A DNA stretch of 49,115 nucleotides. Source: an uncultured Bermanella sp. Lineage in GTDB: Bacteria > Pseudomonadota > Gammaproteobacteria > Pseudomonadales > Oceanobacteraceae. The notes under the pieces are model-generated. The model was not told the DNA's origin. It did not search any database and saw only the letters and a list, made by a program, of their open reading frames with translations. The translations under genes were made by a program, and so were the position numbers. Of the stretch, positions 6,684 to 12,257 are shown piece after piece. Where the stretch lies: NCBI GenBank assembly GCA_913058575.1, contig CAJXRF010000045.1, forward strand, positions 1 to 49,115, written 5' to 3'. Position 1 is the first letter of the stretch. Each line of letters begins with the position of its first letter.

Positions 6684-7076
6684 TTAACTATTTTCCCCAG
6701 CCATAAATTGAATAAGCGCTTCAAACTCTTGAGCACTGCAATCCATGCACATGCCAAATGGCGGCATACCTGCATAACCATTAATGACACTGTCTAGCAG
6801 TTTATCCATGCCCTTTTCCACTCTGGGTTGCCAGGCTTTTTTATCCCCAACCAAAGGGGCGGTACTTTCATCTACCGCATGACATGCTTGGCAGCTGCGC
6901 TGATAAATACTGGCTATGTGTGCATCTTGAGGCATGGCACTTTTTGCATTGGCCAACAGACTTTGCTGGTTAGGCCCGTCATCACAGCCAACGATGAAAA
7001 AAGACAGAACCGCCAAAAGACTTATTTTAAATAATTGCGAAACATTTGAAGGGATTGTTGCAGACATTTTAGCCAT
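6684..7076 (-). CDS. lipoprotein cytochrome c5-family protein
   Basis: A 130-residue monohaem cytochrome. The signal peptide ends in a lipobox-like FFIVGC with Cys31 as the likely lipid-modified residue followed by DD, suggesting inner-membrane retention. The haem site is CQACH at 62-66. The distal part GMPPFGMCMDCS supplies the axial methionine and the extra CxxC typical of cytochrome c5. It probably passes electrons in the periplasm. The upstream FAD oxidase gene would be a logical electron donor partner, but the two are separated by about 240 bases with a possible terminator, so this link is only suggestive. Confidence 0.85.
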   Translation of the reverse strand: MAKMSATIPSNVSQLFKISLLAVLSFFIVGCDDGPNQQSLLANAKSAMPQDAHIASIYQRSCQACHAVDESTAPLVGDKKAWQPRVEKGMDKLLDSVINGYAGMPPFGMCMDCSAQEFEALIQFMAGENS

Positions 7077-7718: not shown

Positions 7719-8381
7719 CTAGCCAGATATAGGGCTCACTAAAGCCATTACTAGGCCTTTTTCCACCCATAGCTTTACTTGCTGTCCATCCACATGCACG
7801 CTAACAGGCGCTTGTTGTGCTTCTAACTTGGGTAAAAAACCAAAGTCTTCGGCATTGAAGCGGCTTTCAAATAACGTTGAAATGGCGCCCTTGTCATCCT
7901 GCATTCTAAGTTGTGCCGCGATATTGCCCTGTATCGAGCAATAGCGCCCACCAATAAGGGCACTTGATAACCCTAATACTTGAGAGCTTCCCAAAGGGTT
8001 AAAGTCTAACTTTTTAAAGTACTGAGTGACGTTACTTAATTGAGTATTGGCCACTTCTAAAGGCTTGAGTTTTAAGTGATTGTAAGAGACTTCGGCTGCA
8101 ATGGCGTAAATTAATTCTTGCTGAGTCTTCCCTTTAGTCCCACCATAATTAGACAAGGGCAGTAGAGTCGCCATTAACACACCCGCCAGCAATACACTGG
8201 CCAGCAAAGGCCAAGCAAACCCTTTATAAGATTTTGATTGATTAGTCCCAGCATCAGGAGAGAGCGTTTCGACATTTTGTAATACACGATTTTCAAGATC
8301 ATCAAAGTCTGATAATTGCTTTGCTGACAACTCGAAAGCATCAAGATGTTGGTGAATATTTTCTTTAACGGTTTTATTCAT
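7719..8381 (-). CDS. putative membrane anti-sigma factor of the bufferin operon
   Basis: A 220-residue protein with an acidic, helical cytoplasmic part (residues 1-54), one membrane segment (about 55-76, FAWPLLASVLLAGVLMATLLP) and a periplasmic domain of about 140 residues. This layout and its position directly after an ECF sigma gene (8-base overlap of start and stop) indicate an anti-sigma factor. It is not the multi-pass DUF1109/NrsF type known for Caulobacter SigF. The periplasmic part has one Cys (RYCSIQG) and could sense metal or precursor peptide, which is inference. I did not recognise a named family for the C-terminal domain. Confidence 0.7.
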   Translation of the reverse strand: MNKTVKENIHQHLDAFELSAKQLSDFDDLENRVLQNVETLSPDAGTNQSKSYKGFAWPLLASVLLAGVLMATLLPLSNYGGTKGKTQQELIYAIAAEVSYNHLKLKPLEVANTQLSNVTQYFKKLDFNPLGSSQVLGLSSALIGGRYCSIQGNIAAQLRMQDDKGAISTLFESRFNAEDFGFLPKLEAQQAPVSVHVDGQQVKLWVEKGLVMALVSPISG

Positions 8382-8871
8382 GACTAAGCCCCAATAAATG
8401 CGAGGATGAAAGCTGTTTCAATTGTTTCTTTAACCTGTGAATACGCGAAAGTATGGTACCTCGGGCACAGTTAAATTCATCGGCAATTTCTTGAGCGCTG
8501 TATTCCAGTACACAATGCATATATAACAATTCACGCTGCGGTGCTTGCAAAGCCTGCCAATGCTTTTGAAAATCGTGCTGGTCTATGACAATATCTTCCA
8601 AGCGATCTTTATCGATATCAGTATGACTTTGTTCTACCTGTAAGGACTCCACATGAGCTTGGTGATTTTTTTGTTTACGAATTTCGTCGTACCAATAATT
8701 ACGCATAATGGTGCGAATAAAAGCACTTTTTTCCGTAACATCTTTTGGTCTTTTCACTAAAAACCTTTCGATGGCGGTATGCAATACATCCTCAGCATCT
8801 TGAGGGCTGCCCGTTAAAGCAATACCAAAGCGATACAGTTGATTCAAGGTGTGTTTATCTAAAAACTTCAT
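8374..8871 (-). CDS. ECF RNA polymerase sigma factor
   Basis: A 165-residue sigma-70 family protein with only regions 2 and 4. Region 2 spans about residues 9-68 (FGIALTGSPQDAEDVLHTA, then FIRTIMRNYWYDEIRK, the promoter-melting part). Region 4 spans about 102-152 with a helix-turn-helix YSAQEIADEFNCARGTILSR. Its ATG overlaps the bufC stop by 4 bases (ATGA) and its own stop overlaps the anti-sigma start, so it is translated from the bufferin transcript. It would drive the operon itself in a positive loop, released by the anti-sigma when a signal arrives. It should be compared with the SigF-type sigma factor that controls bufferin genes in Caulobacter. Confidence 0.9.
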   Translation of the reverse strand: MKFLDKHTLNQLYRFGIALTGSPQDAEDVLHTAIERFLVKRPKDVTEKSAFIRTIMRNYWYDEIRKQKNHQAHVESLQVEQSHTDIDKDRLEDIVIDQHDFQKHWQALQAPQRELLYMHCVLEYSAQEIADEFNCARGTILSRIHRLKKQLKQLSSSHLLGLSHE

Positions 8872-9674
8872 ACCACGGCACCGGCCATTTTCAACCAGCC
8901 TTCTCTTAACAAAATAGGCAGTATCTCAAGCTGAGTTTCGTTTAATCCATTCATATTGCTAGGCTGTTCAAAAACCAATAATAAATCGTATAGCGCTTTA
9001 TCTATTGCTTTAACCTGTACTTTGCCTTCATTTCTAAAAAAGAGGCTATAAATAATGCTTTCTTGAAAAGGTATATTTTCGATGTTTTCAATGGATGAAA
9101 TATTAGTTAAATCTATTGAACTGGCCATTAAAAACAGGCTGGATTGGCGAACAAAGTCAGTATTCATTTGCACATCAAGGGGCATATTAATAAACCTATT
9201 GATGGCAAACGCTTGATTATTAGCAGCATAATAACAACACTGTTTTACATAATCAGATTGAGCGATATGAAATAAAACCAATGACCCTTTAGCCTCACCA
9301 TTACCAGAGTCGCTGCTTTTACTTGAAATAAAATTAGCAAAAAATTCACCATAATGGTTTAAGTCTTCCGATTGAGAAGGATAGGCCTCTATATATTCAT
9401 CGGCCCATTGCTTAAAGGTACGTTCACCCAATAATCGTTTGGTGTGTATAAAAGTCGTTTTTAAGCAGTTCAGTAATGCCAACTGATAGTTGTTTTGATA
9501 AATGGATATGCGCACGGCTGGGCTGTGAATGTCATGACTCAGCAACGATGACAACTGGAGTGCTTTTTCCACGCTGCCCTTGCGTAATGGCCCTGTGGCA
9601 GAAACGGTATGTGAATCCATTACCGATTGTAAAAAGAGCTGCTGGCATTGTCTAAGCGAATATTGGCTTTTCAC
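8868..9674 (-). CDS. bufC: bufC/hvfC-like DUF2063 partner protein
   Basis: A 268-residue protein whose first half fits DUF2063 (HvfC/BufC): SIYQNNYQLALLNCLKTTF, then LLGERTFKQWADEYI and DLNHYGEFFANFI. In characterised bufferin and HvfA systems this protein partners the DUF692 enzyme and helps present the precursor peptide for modification. The start overlaps the end of bufB by 23 bases and the stop overlaps the sigma-factor ATG by 4, so translation is coupled on both sides. The C-terminal half is less conserved to my eye. Assignment rests on the motif order plus the invariant gene neighbourhood. Confidence 0.88.
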   Translation of the reverse strand: MKSQYSLRQCQQLFLQSVMDSHTVSATGPLRKGSVEKALQLSSLLSHDIHSPAVRISIYQNNYQLALLNCLKTTFIHTKRLLGERTFKQWADEYIEAYPSQSEDLNHYGEFFANFISSKSSDSGNGEAKGSLVLFHIAQSDYVKQCCYYAANNQAFAINRFINMPLDVQMNTDFVRQSSLFLMASSIDLTNISSIENIENIPFQESIIYSLFFRNEGKVQVKAIDKALYDLLLVFEQPSNMNGLNETQLEILPILLREGWLKMAGAVV

Positions 9675-10488
9675 TGGTCTTACTCATAATGGCCATGGCT
9701 TTTTGTTGCTCTTGAAGTAGCACATTAAAATCTGGAAGGTCATTGTCCCACTCAATTAGCGTGGGAATACCTTTAAATTTCTGTATGGCCAATTCGTATA
9801 AGGACCAAACGGGCTCACTGACTGGATTATTGTGCGCGTCTAAAAAGTAATCTCCCTTGTCAGTATAACCCCCTAAGTGAATCTCCTTTACCACTGAGTG
9901 ATTAAGGGCATTTAAAAACTCCACTGCATTTTGATCCAAGTTTTTTTGATTAACGTACAGGTTATTCACATCCAGTAATATTTCGCATTGCGTTTCATGA
10001 GCCAGAGCATTTAAAAAGTCGGCTTCATTTATGGTGGTATGCTCATAAGCCAAATAGGCTGAAATATTTTCAACCACAAGGGCTTGCCCTAAAACATCTT
10101 GAGCTTGTTGAATGCGCACGACCATGTGTTGCAGCGATTCTTCAGTGTAGGGTAAGGGGGCTAAATCATGCAGTTGATTACCTTGTACTGCACTAAAGGA
10201 AAGGTGATCGGAGAGCCAATTGGCTTCACAGCGAACCGCTAAGGCCTTAACTTTTGATAGGTAATCTAAATTAAGAGGGTCAAGCCCTCCAAGGTTCATG
10301 CCTACACCATGCAGGGTGACTGGATATTGTTCGGTAATTTTATCCAATAAAAAACCATCAATGCCTGAAGCATCCAGCCAATTATCGGTGAGCAGCTCAA
10401 ACCAAGGGACATTGGGTTCAGTGGCCAATATGGTTTCTATGTGAGGGCTGCGCAAGCCCAGCCCCACGTTTTGAATGCTCGATATCAT
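9652..10488 (-). CDS. bufB: MNIO (DUF692) enzyme BufB, multinuclear iron RiPP-modifying oxidase
   Basis: A 278-residue TIM-barrel protein of the DUF692/MNIO family. It opens with VGLGLRSPHIETIL. Candidate iron ligands are visible in order: H60 (TLHGVGMNLGG), D94/H95 (WLSDHLSFS), E140 (VVENIS), D173 (LLDVNNLYVN), H204 (EIHLGGY), D217 and H219 (LDAHNN) and E246 (LIEWDND). MNIOs oxidise cysteines of a precursor into thiooxazole or oxazolone/thioamide groups. The ATG overlaps the bufA stop (TAATG), so enzyme and precursor are translationally coupled. The substrate should be the protein encoded immediately upstream. Confidence 0.93.
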   Translation of the reverse strand: MISSIQNVGLGLRSPHIETILATEPNVPWFELLTDNWLDASGIDGFLLDKITEQYPVTLHGVGMNLGGLDPLNLDYLSKVKALAVRCEANWLSDHLSFSAVQGNQLHDLAPLPYTEESLQHMVVRIQQAQDVLGQALVVENISAYLAYEHTTINEADFLNALAHETQCEILLDVNNLYVNQKNLDQNAVEFLNALNHSVVKEIHLGGYTDKGDYFLDAHNNPVSEPVWSLYELAIQKFKGIPTLIEWDNDLPDFNVLLQEQQKAMAIMSKTSEKPIFA

Positions 10489-10772
10489 TACGCTTTAGCT
10501 GGCTTCACTTTTTTCACCACACCACCCACAATTTTTTCACAGCTGCCTTCATGCACGTATACCCATTCGTTGTCTGAGTTATCTATTTTTGCTTGACCCG
10601 CGCAACCATGAGATCCATCTAAGGCACCGCAGTCGTTTTTACCGGCTTTAGCAATTCCTGCACACTTTTCCCAATTTTTAGGCTGATCAGGTACCGCATT
10701 GGCACCATTGGCCATCATCATGCCTAGCGTACTCATAGCTGCCACAGCAGCGATTTTCTGGGTGTTATTCAT
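10488..10772 (-). CDS. bufA: bufferin-type metallophore precursor BufA (DUF2282-like)
   Basis: A 94-residue precursor. Residues 1-26 form a signal peptide (GMMMANGANA, cleavage before VPD). The mature 68 residues have four cysteines, C37, C48, C57 and C78, in the settings EKCAGIAKAGKNDCG, SHGCAGQ and HEGSCEK, the signature of BufA/DUF2282 bufferins. In studied systems two central cysteines become heterocycles that bind copper and the outer pair forms a disulfide; applying this here is inference. The C-terminus is lysine-rich (KKVKPAKA). First gene of the five-gene unit; promoter candidates lie at 10820-10857. Confidence 0.9.
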   Translation of the reverse strand: MNNTQKIAAVAAMSTLGMMMANGANAVPDQPKNWEKCAGIAKAGKNDCGALDGSHGCAGQAKIDNSDNEWVYVHEGSCEKIVGGVVKKVKPAKA

Positions 10773-10819: not shown

Positions 10820-10857
10820 TCTATAGTAAAGACGTATGAACATCTCAATTGATTGCA
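10820..10857 (-). promoter_or_regulatory. overlapping sigma-70 and ECF promoter candidates of the bufferin operon
   Basis: Reading the minus strand, TTGAGA (10843-10848) and TATAGA (10820-10825) are 17 bases apart, a fair sigma-70 promoter. Overlapping it, TGCAATC (10851-10857) stands 16 bases before CGTCT (10830-10834), resembling an ECF promoter of the GTAAC-N16-CGTC kind. Both face bufA. The overlap would suit an operon with basal and induced transcription, but neither has been tested. Confidence 0.45.
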
Positions 10858-10943: not shown

Positions 10944-11504
10944 TTACGCCATTCTGGGCAGTACATCCTTATCCTTGCCATCAAACATCCTGTGTTTAAC
11001 CACCCCTGCAATATGAGCGGTTAGCAAAACAATGAAAGACCAAGCAAAGAAGCTGTGAACATTATGAGCAATGCCATTCCAATACTCACTTTTAGGGGTA
11101 ATATCAGGAATGCTAAACAACCCAAACATATCCACACCCTCCACATAAGCATAGGTTGAATTCATAAAGTACCCAGAAAAAGTCATTCCGATCATGGATA
11201 CATACAAAAGGATATGCACTAAGTGAGACAAGTGATGTTCCCACTGTTGCAAACCGGCGGCTGGCGCAGGGACAGGGCCCTTGGCCCGAGCTGGCAGCCG
11301 TAATACCACTAAAAATAAAGCAATCATGCCAAACGCTTTGTGCAATGGATAAAGGTCGTACTTTTCAGGGGCTTTAGGGTCGATGTCGGCCATATAAAAG
11401 CCCACAGCCAAAAGAGTCATAATGATCAGTGCTGTTGACCAATGCAGTACTCTTAAGGTGAGAGAATATTTATCCACAGGTGACTGAGTTAGGGTATTCA
11501 TCAT
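10944..11504 (-). CDS. cytochrome b561
   Basis: A 186-residue, four-helix membrane haem protein. Haem-ligand histidines appear in LRVLHWSTALIIM (helix 1), YPLHKAFGMIALF (helix 2), HLSHLVHILLYVS (helix 3) and NVHSFFAWSFIVLLTAHIAG (helix 4), the cytochrome b561 pattern. Such proteins move electrons from quinol to periplasmic acceptors or oxygen. An AGGAGG site precedes two consecutive ATGs at 11504 and 11501; the second has the better spacing. It follows the FMN reductase by 13 bases, so the two form an operon. Nearness to the bufferin operon is noteworthy but a terminator separates them. Confidence 0.92.
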   Translation of the reverse strand: MMNTLTQSPVDKYSLTLRVLHWSTALIIMTLLAVGFYMADIDPKAPEKYDLYPLHKAFGMIALFLVVLRLPARAKGPVPAPAAGLQQWEHHLSHLVHILLYVSMIGMTFSGYFMNSTYAYVEGVDMFGLFSIPDITPKSEYWNGIAHNVHSFFAWSFIVLLTAHIAGVVKHRMFDGKDKDVLPRMA

Positions 11505-11517
11505 TTCCTCCTAATGC

Positions 11518-12087
11518 TTAAACGTGAGCGTGGCTTAGTACTTGGTTTACCAAGGCATCTACTCGGTCACTTAAGGCGGCATTCACAATTTGACCATTCT
11601 CATCAAACGCTTCATAGGATGCTGGAACCGCCACCTGAGCTGGCACCACTAAACTGCCCACATTGGTTAATACATCGCGTAAATGGCTTAAGCCTCGAAT
11701 TCCCCCTAAACCACCAGGAGACGCCGCCATAATGCCCACTGAAAATTGCCCGTAAGCTGGTTGGTAACTTTCATCTTTGGCCGAGCGAGACAACCAATCT
11801 AGGGTATTTTTCAACACAGGCGCAATAGAACCATTGTATTCTGGGCTGGCAATCAGCAGACCATTGGCACTGCTAAAAAGGGCTCGTAAATCATTTAGCG
11901 CGGCACTGGGGGCTTGATCTTCCAAGGTTTCATCAAACATAGGTAGCGGGTAGTCGGCTAGGTCTAAAACCGTTACCCGTGCACCAGCACTTTCGGCGCT
12001 ACGTGCAGCAGCGTTCACAAGCTGTTTGTTCCAAGAGTCGCTACGCAGGCTTCCGGCAAAGGCAATAATATGGGCTGGCTGAGTCAT
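11518..12087 (-). CDS. NAD(P)H-dependent FMN reductase
   Basis: A 189-residue flavodoxin-fold reductase. [18 protein letters not shown] (near the N-terminus) is the FMN phosphate-binding loop, [22 protein letters not shown] the classical PEYNGS motif, and [11 protein letters not shown] a further flavin contact, as in ChrR, ArsH-like and azoreductase relatives. An open frame extends 50 codons upstream, but ATG at 12087 gives the normal family start and leaves room for a divergent promoter. Lies upstream of cytochrome b561 in one operon; the divergent LysR gene at 12258 probably regulates it. Likely reduces quinones, flavins or similar acceptors. Confidence 0.9.
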
Positions 12088-12257
12088 GTGATGCTCCTTA
12101 ATTTGGGTGTTATTTAATGTAGGAGCATTTTGACCTCTATTTATTTGAACAAAAACAGAATTAATGCAAAGCTTCTGTGCATACATGCACACAGCAAATA
12201 CATAGTGGGCACACGTAAAAAAAGCACCACCCATCAATAAGCCCAGATAGGTACCCC

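Follow-up and report, generated by a model that had tools for sequence, protein, structure and literature searches.

A Buf1 bufferin operon of an uncultured Bermanella sp. with its own ECF sigma factor and a one-pass anti-sigma: a probable self-amplifying switch

Copper-buffering peptides known as bufferins are widespread, and what tells a cell when to make them has been established in few cases. We analysed a five-gene locus on the minus strand of a 49,115-nucleotide stretch of DNA from an uncultured Bermanella sp. (assembly GCA_913058575.1, contig CAJXRF010000045.1; this whole stretch is hereafter called the window), in which the bufferin genes bufA, bufB and bufC are directly followed by genes encoding an extracytoplasmic function (ECF) sigma factor and an anti-sigma with a single membrane helix. 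We consider that this locus is probably a self-amplifying switch for its Buf1 bufferin operon, i.e. that the sigma would read a promoter motif located upstream of bufA and thereby raise its own production together with that of the bufferin.

All five genes were confirmed (Table 1). They overlap without gaps, the bufA/bufB junction sharing one base (TAATG) and the bufB/bufC, bufC/sigma and sigma/anti-sigma junctions 23, 4 and 8 bases, exactly as had been described in an earlier reading made from the letters alone (hereafter the sequence-only reading). The first three genes make up a Buf1 cluster, i.e. a DUF2282 precursor with four cysteines, the MNIO maturase BufB and the DUF2063 partner BufC. 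The sigma is of the ECF type, being a short protein (165 amino acids) that contains Sigma70_r2 and Sigma70_r4_2 only and scores above the cut-off of TIGR02937.

The distribution of this gene set was assessed with an anti-sigma profile; the family profile A4 comprises 72 sequences. The anti-sigma was found in 8 of 55 near genomes, our own included; at six of these eight loci the sigma/anti-sigma pair is accompanied by bufABC (bufC being assigned by place at L017, and a DoxX-like gene being interposed at L018) and two (L012 and L015) have the pair only. A scan of named genomes returned 113 relatives, of which 80 loci were analysed; their hosts are Bermanella, Shewanella, Microbulbifer, Algicola, many uncultured Gammaproteobacteria and a few genomes titled as other classes. 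Since a sigma gene lies alongside in 78 of these 80 loci and all five genes are present in 53, the five-gene arrangement is not due to chance. Gene order is strict in 51 of the 53 complete operons, the other two (L066 and L073) having one gene split into two open reading frame (ORF) pieces, and the median gaps are -1, -10, -7 and -4 bases; for buf-linked members, a single tight operon is the rule. The claim that the bufferin operon is tied to its own sigma/anti-sigma pair was borne out. In 18 of the 80 loci the pair occurs with buf genes absent from the flank examined. Some loci bear different labels in different searches (L012 = L019, L013 = L020, L014 = L026, L018 = L088, L124 = L028, L127 = L024).

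Several variants of the arrangement were observed. In two otherwise complete operons bufB and bufC are fused into one frame (L058, 639-3603, 515 amino acids; L083, 3327-6636, 585 amino acids). Locus L184 (3154-7555) carries two tandem copies of bufA, then bufB, bufC, a DoxX-like gene (by eye), a sigma gene and a strongly diverged anti-sigma that keeps a cysteine near the position of Cys148 (see below); the exact promoter motif was not found there. At L086, L087, L090 and L093 a DoxX-like gene of about 300 codons lies directly 5' of the sigma/anti-sigma pair, in flanks without bufABC; the Pfam check of this call covered the L086 protein only, and many DoxX-like or msrA-like neighbours were named by eye.

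The family consensus 5' of bufA reads aTGCAATCAAa-N8-t.attCGTcttag, with the core TGCAATCAA-N14-CGT(C). With spacers of 12-19 and one mismatch permitted, the motif was found in 57 of 58 bufA upstream regions versus a mean of 1.3 for single-base shuffles, and the only negative region, that of L026, proved to have a site at a greater distance 5' (seen at L214, from the same genome). No such motif precedes the sigma gene in 50 of the 53 complete operons, the other three having weak matches with one mismatch. When the pair and bufABC are split over separate contigs, as in the genomes G003 and G039, the exact motif stands on both units. In silico, the promoter thus behaves as a self-regulated one, shared by bufA and, when the units are split, by sigma; separate transcription of the sigma gene, named in the sequence-only reading as the outcome that would speak against it, found no support at this level.

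We further compared bufA genes according to whether their genome encodes the anti-sigma. This comparison comprised 47 DUF2282 loci (17 of relatives and 30 of the hits in the class sample), less two that were dropped (one incomplete row and one without a bufA ORF), and genomes with only a weak profile match were scored as lacking the anti-sigma. Where the genome encodes the anti-sigma, the motif precedes 8 of 10 bufA genes; where a strong match is lacking, it precedes 1 of 35 evaluable ones, and that single case carries a mismatch. Four of the eight positive genes (from G003, G012, G018 and G039) are independent of motif discovery. We regard this contrast, which is independent of gene adjacency, as the strongest evidence that the sigma drives bufA.

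An exact search of our own genome, in which degenerate sites would be missed, gave three places: the bufA site, a site of equal spacing inside a coding ORF and a site of spacing 16 overlapping coding ORFs. Because the last two lie within or across coding ORFs, only the operon looks like a target. Seven relatives together gave 19 exact sites versus 3 for the reversed control, 6 of them before bufA or sigma. Generic sigma-70 promoters numbered 3 in the region versus 10.0 expected, and no terminator is claimed since 3 were found versus 3.1 expected.

The window anti-sigma has no Pfam match and a single, chance-level match in NCBIfam (0.051). A single membrane segment was predicted in 71 of the 72 family members, with 239 lysine and arginine residues before it and 75 after it, which places the N-terminus inside. 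The description of a protein that crosses the membrane once and carries a periplasmic domain, in contrast to NrsF with its six segments, therefore held. The outer domain, modelled alone, gave a confident fold (Table 1). Fifteen of the 72 members match DUF3379 (PF11859; best 2.6e-7), the window protein does not, and no paper naming DUF3379 was found in a literature search. A solved homologue was sought by sequence and rejected, the best hits (E 0.96 and 0.065) being unrelated molecules.

Two residues of the outer domain stand out, Cys148 (the only cysteine of the protein) and His102. Their invariance (80 of 80 aligned sequences for Cys148, and the 72-member set) is partly selected, because the scan used GGRYCSI-like and NHxK-like patterns. 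In a class profile search that used no residue pattern, with a profile nevertheless made from the same proteins, Cys148 is retained in 16 of 17 strong hits, our own included. The sole loss is in G282 (L185, 1513-2031), where the N-terminal domain is missing as well and no sigma gene was found in the 9 kb examined; this relative has probably decayed.

The periplasmic domain is unlike the sensors described so far for bufferin operons. It is distantly related to the outer domains of eight other membrane anti-sigmas, with which it aligns (set A7, which we take to belong to COG5662) over 122 columns (hhalign E 2.1e-11, probability 97.3), and in these proteins too the anti-sigma adjoins an ECF gene. 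The A7 relatives read GGRLLP-like where the family has GGRYCSI, the position of Cys148 being occupied by L, I or, in a single relative, D; His102 likewise distinguishes the family from them. Two A7 members scanned against Pfam and NCBIfam have sub-threshold N-terminal zf-HC2 and PRK13920 matches, unlike the window protein; in the latter no zf-HC2/ASD-like N-terminal domain was recognised by Pfam and the model shows two inner helices only.

The pair also seems to have a target other than bufferin. In the class sample, a DUF2282 gene occurs in 6 of the 17 genomes with a strong anti-sigma hit (97 of 369 overall); in five of these six the pair has buf genes as neighbours. Among the remaining 11, five possess an MNIO gene (with an EGKCG-type precursor in G111, G247 and G344), and no promoter motif was found before the MNIO gene in the flank examined in those five. 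In G111 and G247, where no bufA was detected, one exact site lies 230-345 bases before sigma and a second one, on another contig, precedes a gene for a small exported protein (FVSCADF or YVSCADF). G344 has one site before sigma and another inside an unrelated gene, and G249 has no site. The exported protein gene lies immediately 5' of sigma in ten distinct loci (L081, L089, L097, L098, L131, L134-L137 and L140). Across the 12 distinct loci with this protein (L081, L089, L097, L098, L131/L186, L134/L190, L135/L187, L136/L188, L137, L140, L261 and L262), the promoter was found at seven, in one case with a mismatch; this count has no shuffle control and includes two loci found via the motif (L261 and L262) and two near-copies (L081/L089).

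The exported protein has about 135 amino acids, contains KKGDFYVSCADF and ends near KRKYHLE; across nine sequences C88, H75, H120 and H130 do not vary, and no significant relative was found in Pfam or PDB. From the shared promoter and the gene order, the same sigma family appears to drive this Cys/His protein instead of bufferins in other genomes, and the sigma/anti-sigma pair seems to serve two outputs.

This bears on what the outer domain might sense. In one alternative, the circuit is the same and the domain binds the bufferin precursor or peptide in the manner of RseB, rather than a metal or thiol signal; the sequence-only reading had likewise envisaged sensing of unmodified precursor. RseB, a periplasmic stress sensor, does give the best Foldseek matches, although these are not significant (E 0.02-0.07 for the five best), and the A7 outer domains align with RseB C-domain profiles at E 5e-4 (probability 30%). 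The direct comparison of our family with the RseB C-domain is empty (E 0.18), and RseB was set aside as a sure relative. Because the same promoter precedes the exported protein, also where no DUF2282 was detected, the signal is probably not the precursor; the sensor keeps its Cys and His with both outputs and in systems without detected bufferin, so that the input is more likely a shared one (copper or thiol stress). We therefore consider precursor or peptide sensing rather unlikely, and this part of the sequence-only reading was not supported.

The origin of the sigma was examined in a tree of 50 ECF sequences, i.e. 50 of the 52 collected, two too long being left out (the Neisseria sigma was not among them). 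All 26 sampled sigmas paired with an anti-sigma of this family fall in one branch (support 100/97), which also includes two sigmas beside diverged anti-sigmas (L143 and L144). The 13 NrsF-linked sigmas fall elsewhere, 12 of them grouped at 100/100. NrsF-linked sigmas were collected with the profile of the one-pass-linked sigma family, which found a sigma beside 15 of 30 NrsF loci, and the L161 sigma, which is placed well away from the rest of the NrsF set, is perhaps not a true NrsF partner. The simplest reading of this tree of the sampled sigmas and of the differing promoters is that different ECF switches were recruited to one peptide system. Locus L183 (6130-7919) also holds a sigma from this branch; its anti-sigma has a different outer domain, the pair faces a cytochrome P460 gene, and the promoter motif occurs on both strands between the two units.

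The basic idea of a bufferin operon under an ECF pair is not new, since a co-transcribed Neisseria operon ends in sigma and anti-sigma genes and Caulobacter uses SigF/NrsF; the switch differs. Like the window operon, the Neisseria sigma-E operon (rpoE, mseR; DoxX and MNIO genes) has its sigma and anti-sigma genes last, and the middle genes of NMB2140-NMB2145 presumably include DUF692 and DUF2282. NMB2140-NMB2145 are reported to be co-transcribed and self-activated with a small regulon, MseR coming last (PMC2893595, PMC3240639), and an abstract gives NGO1945 as DUF2063. This co-transcribed precedent (PMC2893595) had been missed by the sequence-only reading, which was right on the operon with its own pair and on the one-pass anti-sigma and found no support on precursor sensing. 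MseR is described as a zinc-motif protein (HxxxCxxC) thought to be cytoplasmic, unlike the window protein, the Neisseria regulon is reported to add msrAB, and its promoter (GTMAGBWTT / CGTCTAAH; PMC2893595) differs from the TGCAATCAA motif. A ZAS identity (MseR, HrsE) was rejected for the window anti-sigma, which lacks HxxxCxxC and has its single cysteine in the periplasmic domain.

In Caulobacter, SigF is reported to control two bufferin operons, and the NrsF cysteines C131 and C181 are reported to be important for the control of sigma-F (PMC3511200). Both systems thus share an ECF switch on DUF2282-DUF692-DUF2063 operons and conserved anti-sigma cysteine(s). By that account, NrsF differs in having six predicted membrane segments, sigF-nrsF form a separate unit, the promoter is GTAACC-N16-CGAA and sigF is not strongly self-regulated under metal stress (PMC3511200). 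The NrsF (DUF1109) identity was rejected for the window protein, which has no PF06532 match and one membrane segment instead of six, and no NrsF was found in our own genome. A survey of MNIO proteins reports sigma and NrsF genes in Buf1 clusters, NrsF being the only anti-sigma named in its available part (PMC12452194). No account of the one-pass family, and no experiment on it, was seen among the listed literature matches on bufferin-type operons, in a search that was not exhaustive. Five papers that contain TGCAATCAA concern, to judge by their titles, Borrelia, Vibrio and streptococci.

A further alternative is that the window pair simply adds one more case to the SigF/NrsF or MseR type, with an ordinary sensor. 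The overall logic is alike, and the sigma and anti-sigma genes stand at the operon end as is reported for Neisseria (PMC2893595). Its sigma nevertheless falls outside the NrsF sigmas in the tree (which does not hold the Neisseria sigma), its -35 element differs from both GTAACC and GTMAGBWTT, and the anti-sigma differs as stated in NrsF matches, segment number and HxxxCxxC; we regard this explanation as very improbable. Two copper-responsive systems invite comparison. Acinetobacter SigAb-AabA-AabB is also an ECF pair with a short membrane anti-sigma and is reported to be copper-induced, but its AabA has 107 amino acids and a separate periplasmic partner (PMC12153292); neither DUF692 nor MNIO occurs in the text of that paper. 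CorE shares copper-responsive ECF control; it is described as having a C-terminal extension that regulates it in place of an anti-sigma (PMC10141476).

The switch that we favour would work as follows. At rest, the anti-sigma, anchored by one helix, would hold the sigma through its short cytoplasmic domain, as family logic and topology suggest. Periplasmic stress, most likely excess copper or thiol damage, may be read by the outer domain through Cys148 and His102, upon which the sigma would be released. It would then read TGCAATCAA-N14-CGTC before bufA, a promoter predicted in silico, and one long RNA, as suggested by the gene order, would encode bufferin, maturation enzymes, more sigma and more anti-sigma. 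Rising anti-sigma and metal-mopping bufferin would close the loop again. Copper or thiol stress is what we infer as the signal.

A possible, though not likely, alternative is an oxidant or general envelope-stress switch, in which Cys148 would be oxidised or form a mixed disulphide, bufferin would be one of several outputs and copper would act indirectly. A lone conserved periplasmic cysteine fits this alternative, as do the reported role of the NrsF cysteines mentioned above and the comparable Haemophilus RpoE2 (with HrsE), which is reported to answer HOCl and H2O2 and to control a DoxX operon (PMC7907618). His102, however, is conserved nearly like the cysteine, which oxidation alone would not require, and visual inspection of the neighbours listed, which was not systematic, revealed no msr gene except for an msrA-like ORF about 2.5 kb off at L183.

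Some observations weigh against the self-amplifying bufferin switch itself. A single Cys together with a single His makes a slender case for a copper site, and expression of the comparable Neisseria sigma is reported to be unaltered by oxidants (PMC2893595). In our own genome the reversed pattern likewise gave three exact matches, and 13 of the 19 exact sites of the seven relatives lie elsewhere, mostly within ORFs; genome-wide exact matches by themselves prove little. Two of the 10 bufA genes in anti-sigma genomes (the second copy in G050, and G250) have no motif, and the 18 pair loci without nearby buf genes show 5 exact and 2 one-mismatch sites before sigma. Moreover, since so few of the 17 strong anti-sigma genomes have a DUF2282 gene, the pair does not serve in every genome as a regulator devoted to bufferins.

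Only tentatively do we extend the proposal to its full form: that the bufferin ECF switch was recruited separately from SigF/NrsF, with an anti-sigma unlike MseR; that a widespread outer domain gained a Cys and a His and thereby became a direct periplasmic Cu(I)/thiol sensor; that the pair acts through a private TGCAATCAA promoter; and that its two outputs are unrelated, the exported Cys/His protein being a second periplasmic metal buffer.

Upstream of the operon on the bufA strand, the window encodes a cytochrome b561-type protein and an NADPH-dependent FMN reductase (10944-12237), the sigma promoter lying in between. Downstream, past an unassigned ORF of 130 amino acids, is a small c-type cytochrome on the operon strand (6684-7076). 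Our own genome has two further MNIO operons, L001 (C24) with a cysteine-rich precursor of 198 amino acids and L002 (C15) with an EGKCG-repeat precursor and a DoxX-like gene alongside (by eye). No sigma gene was recognised in the short stretches around either locus, and the exact search for the sigma promoter gave no site at either.

Table 1. Features of the bufferin operon and of its anti-sigma, with window positions (pLDDT and pTM, confidence scores of the structure model)
Feature	Positions	Strand	Basis
Promoter TGCAATCA-N15-CGT	10832..10857	-	about 60 bases 5' of bufA
bufA, predicted DUF2282 bufferin precursor, C37/C48/C57/C78	10488..10772	-	PF10048 1.5e-22; alignment of 6
bufB, MNIO (DUF692) maturase	9652..10488	-	NF050167 (MNIO_BufB) 322.2 bits, cut-off 310; PF05114 9.6e-95
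bufC, DUF2063 partner protein, GTG start	8868..9674	-	PF09836 5.4e-17, 62.3 versus cut-off 27.2
ECF sigma factor, 165 amino acids	8374..8871	-	PF04542, PF08281 and TIGR02937 above cut-off; tree
One-pass anti-sigma	7719..8381	-	profile A4
Residues 1-56, short two-helix cytoplasmic domain, presumed sigma-binding	8214..8381	-	model helices 5-14 and 20-37
Residues 57-77, membrane helix	8151..8213	-	model and family topology
His102 codon (NHxKLKP)	8076..8078	-	78/80 aligned; 70/72 family members
Residues 84-220, predicted periplasmic sensor domain	7722..8132	-	model pLDDT 95.8, pTM 0.90; A7 homology
Cys148 codon, sole cysteine (GGRYCSI)	7938..7940	-	80/80 aligned; 16/17 strong hits

The locus offers a compact circuit, with one promoter and one candidate pair of sensor residues, for which natural controls are on hand in the genomes with split genes and in the copy that has lost the cysteine and seems to be decaying. 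The locus suggests that one and the same peptide came under different ECF switches in the course of evolution. A second output may be the exported protein, so far undescribed, which on the full form of the proposal would be a second kind of periplasmic metal buffer.

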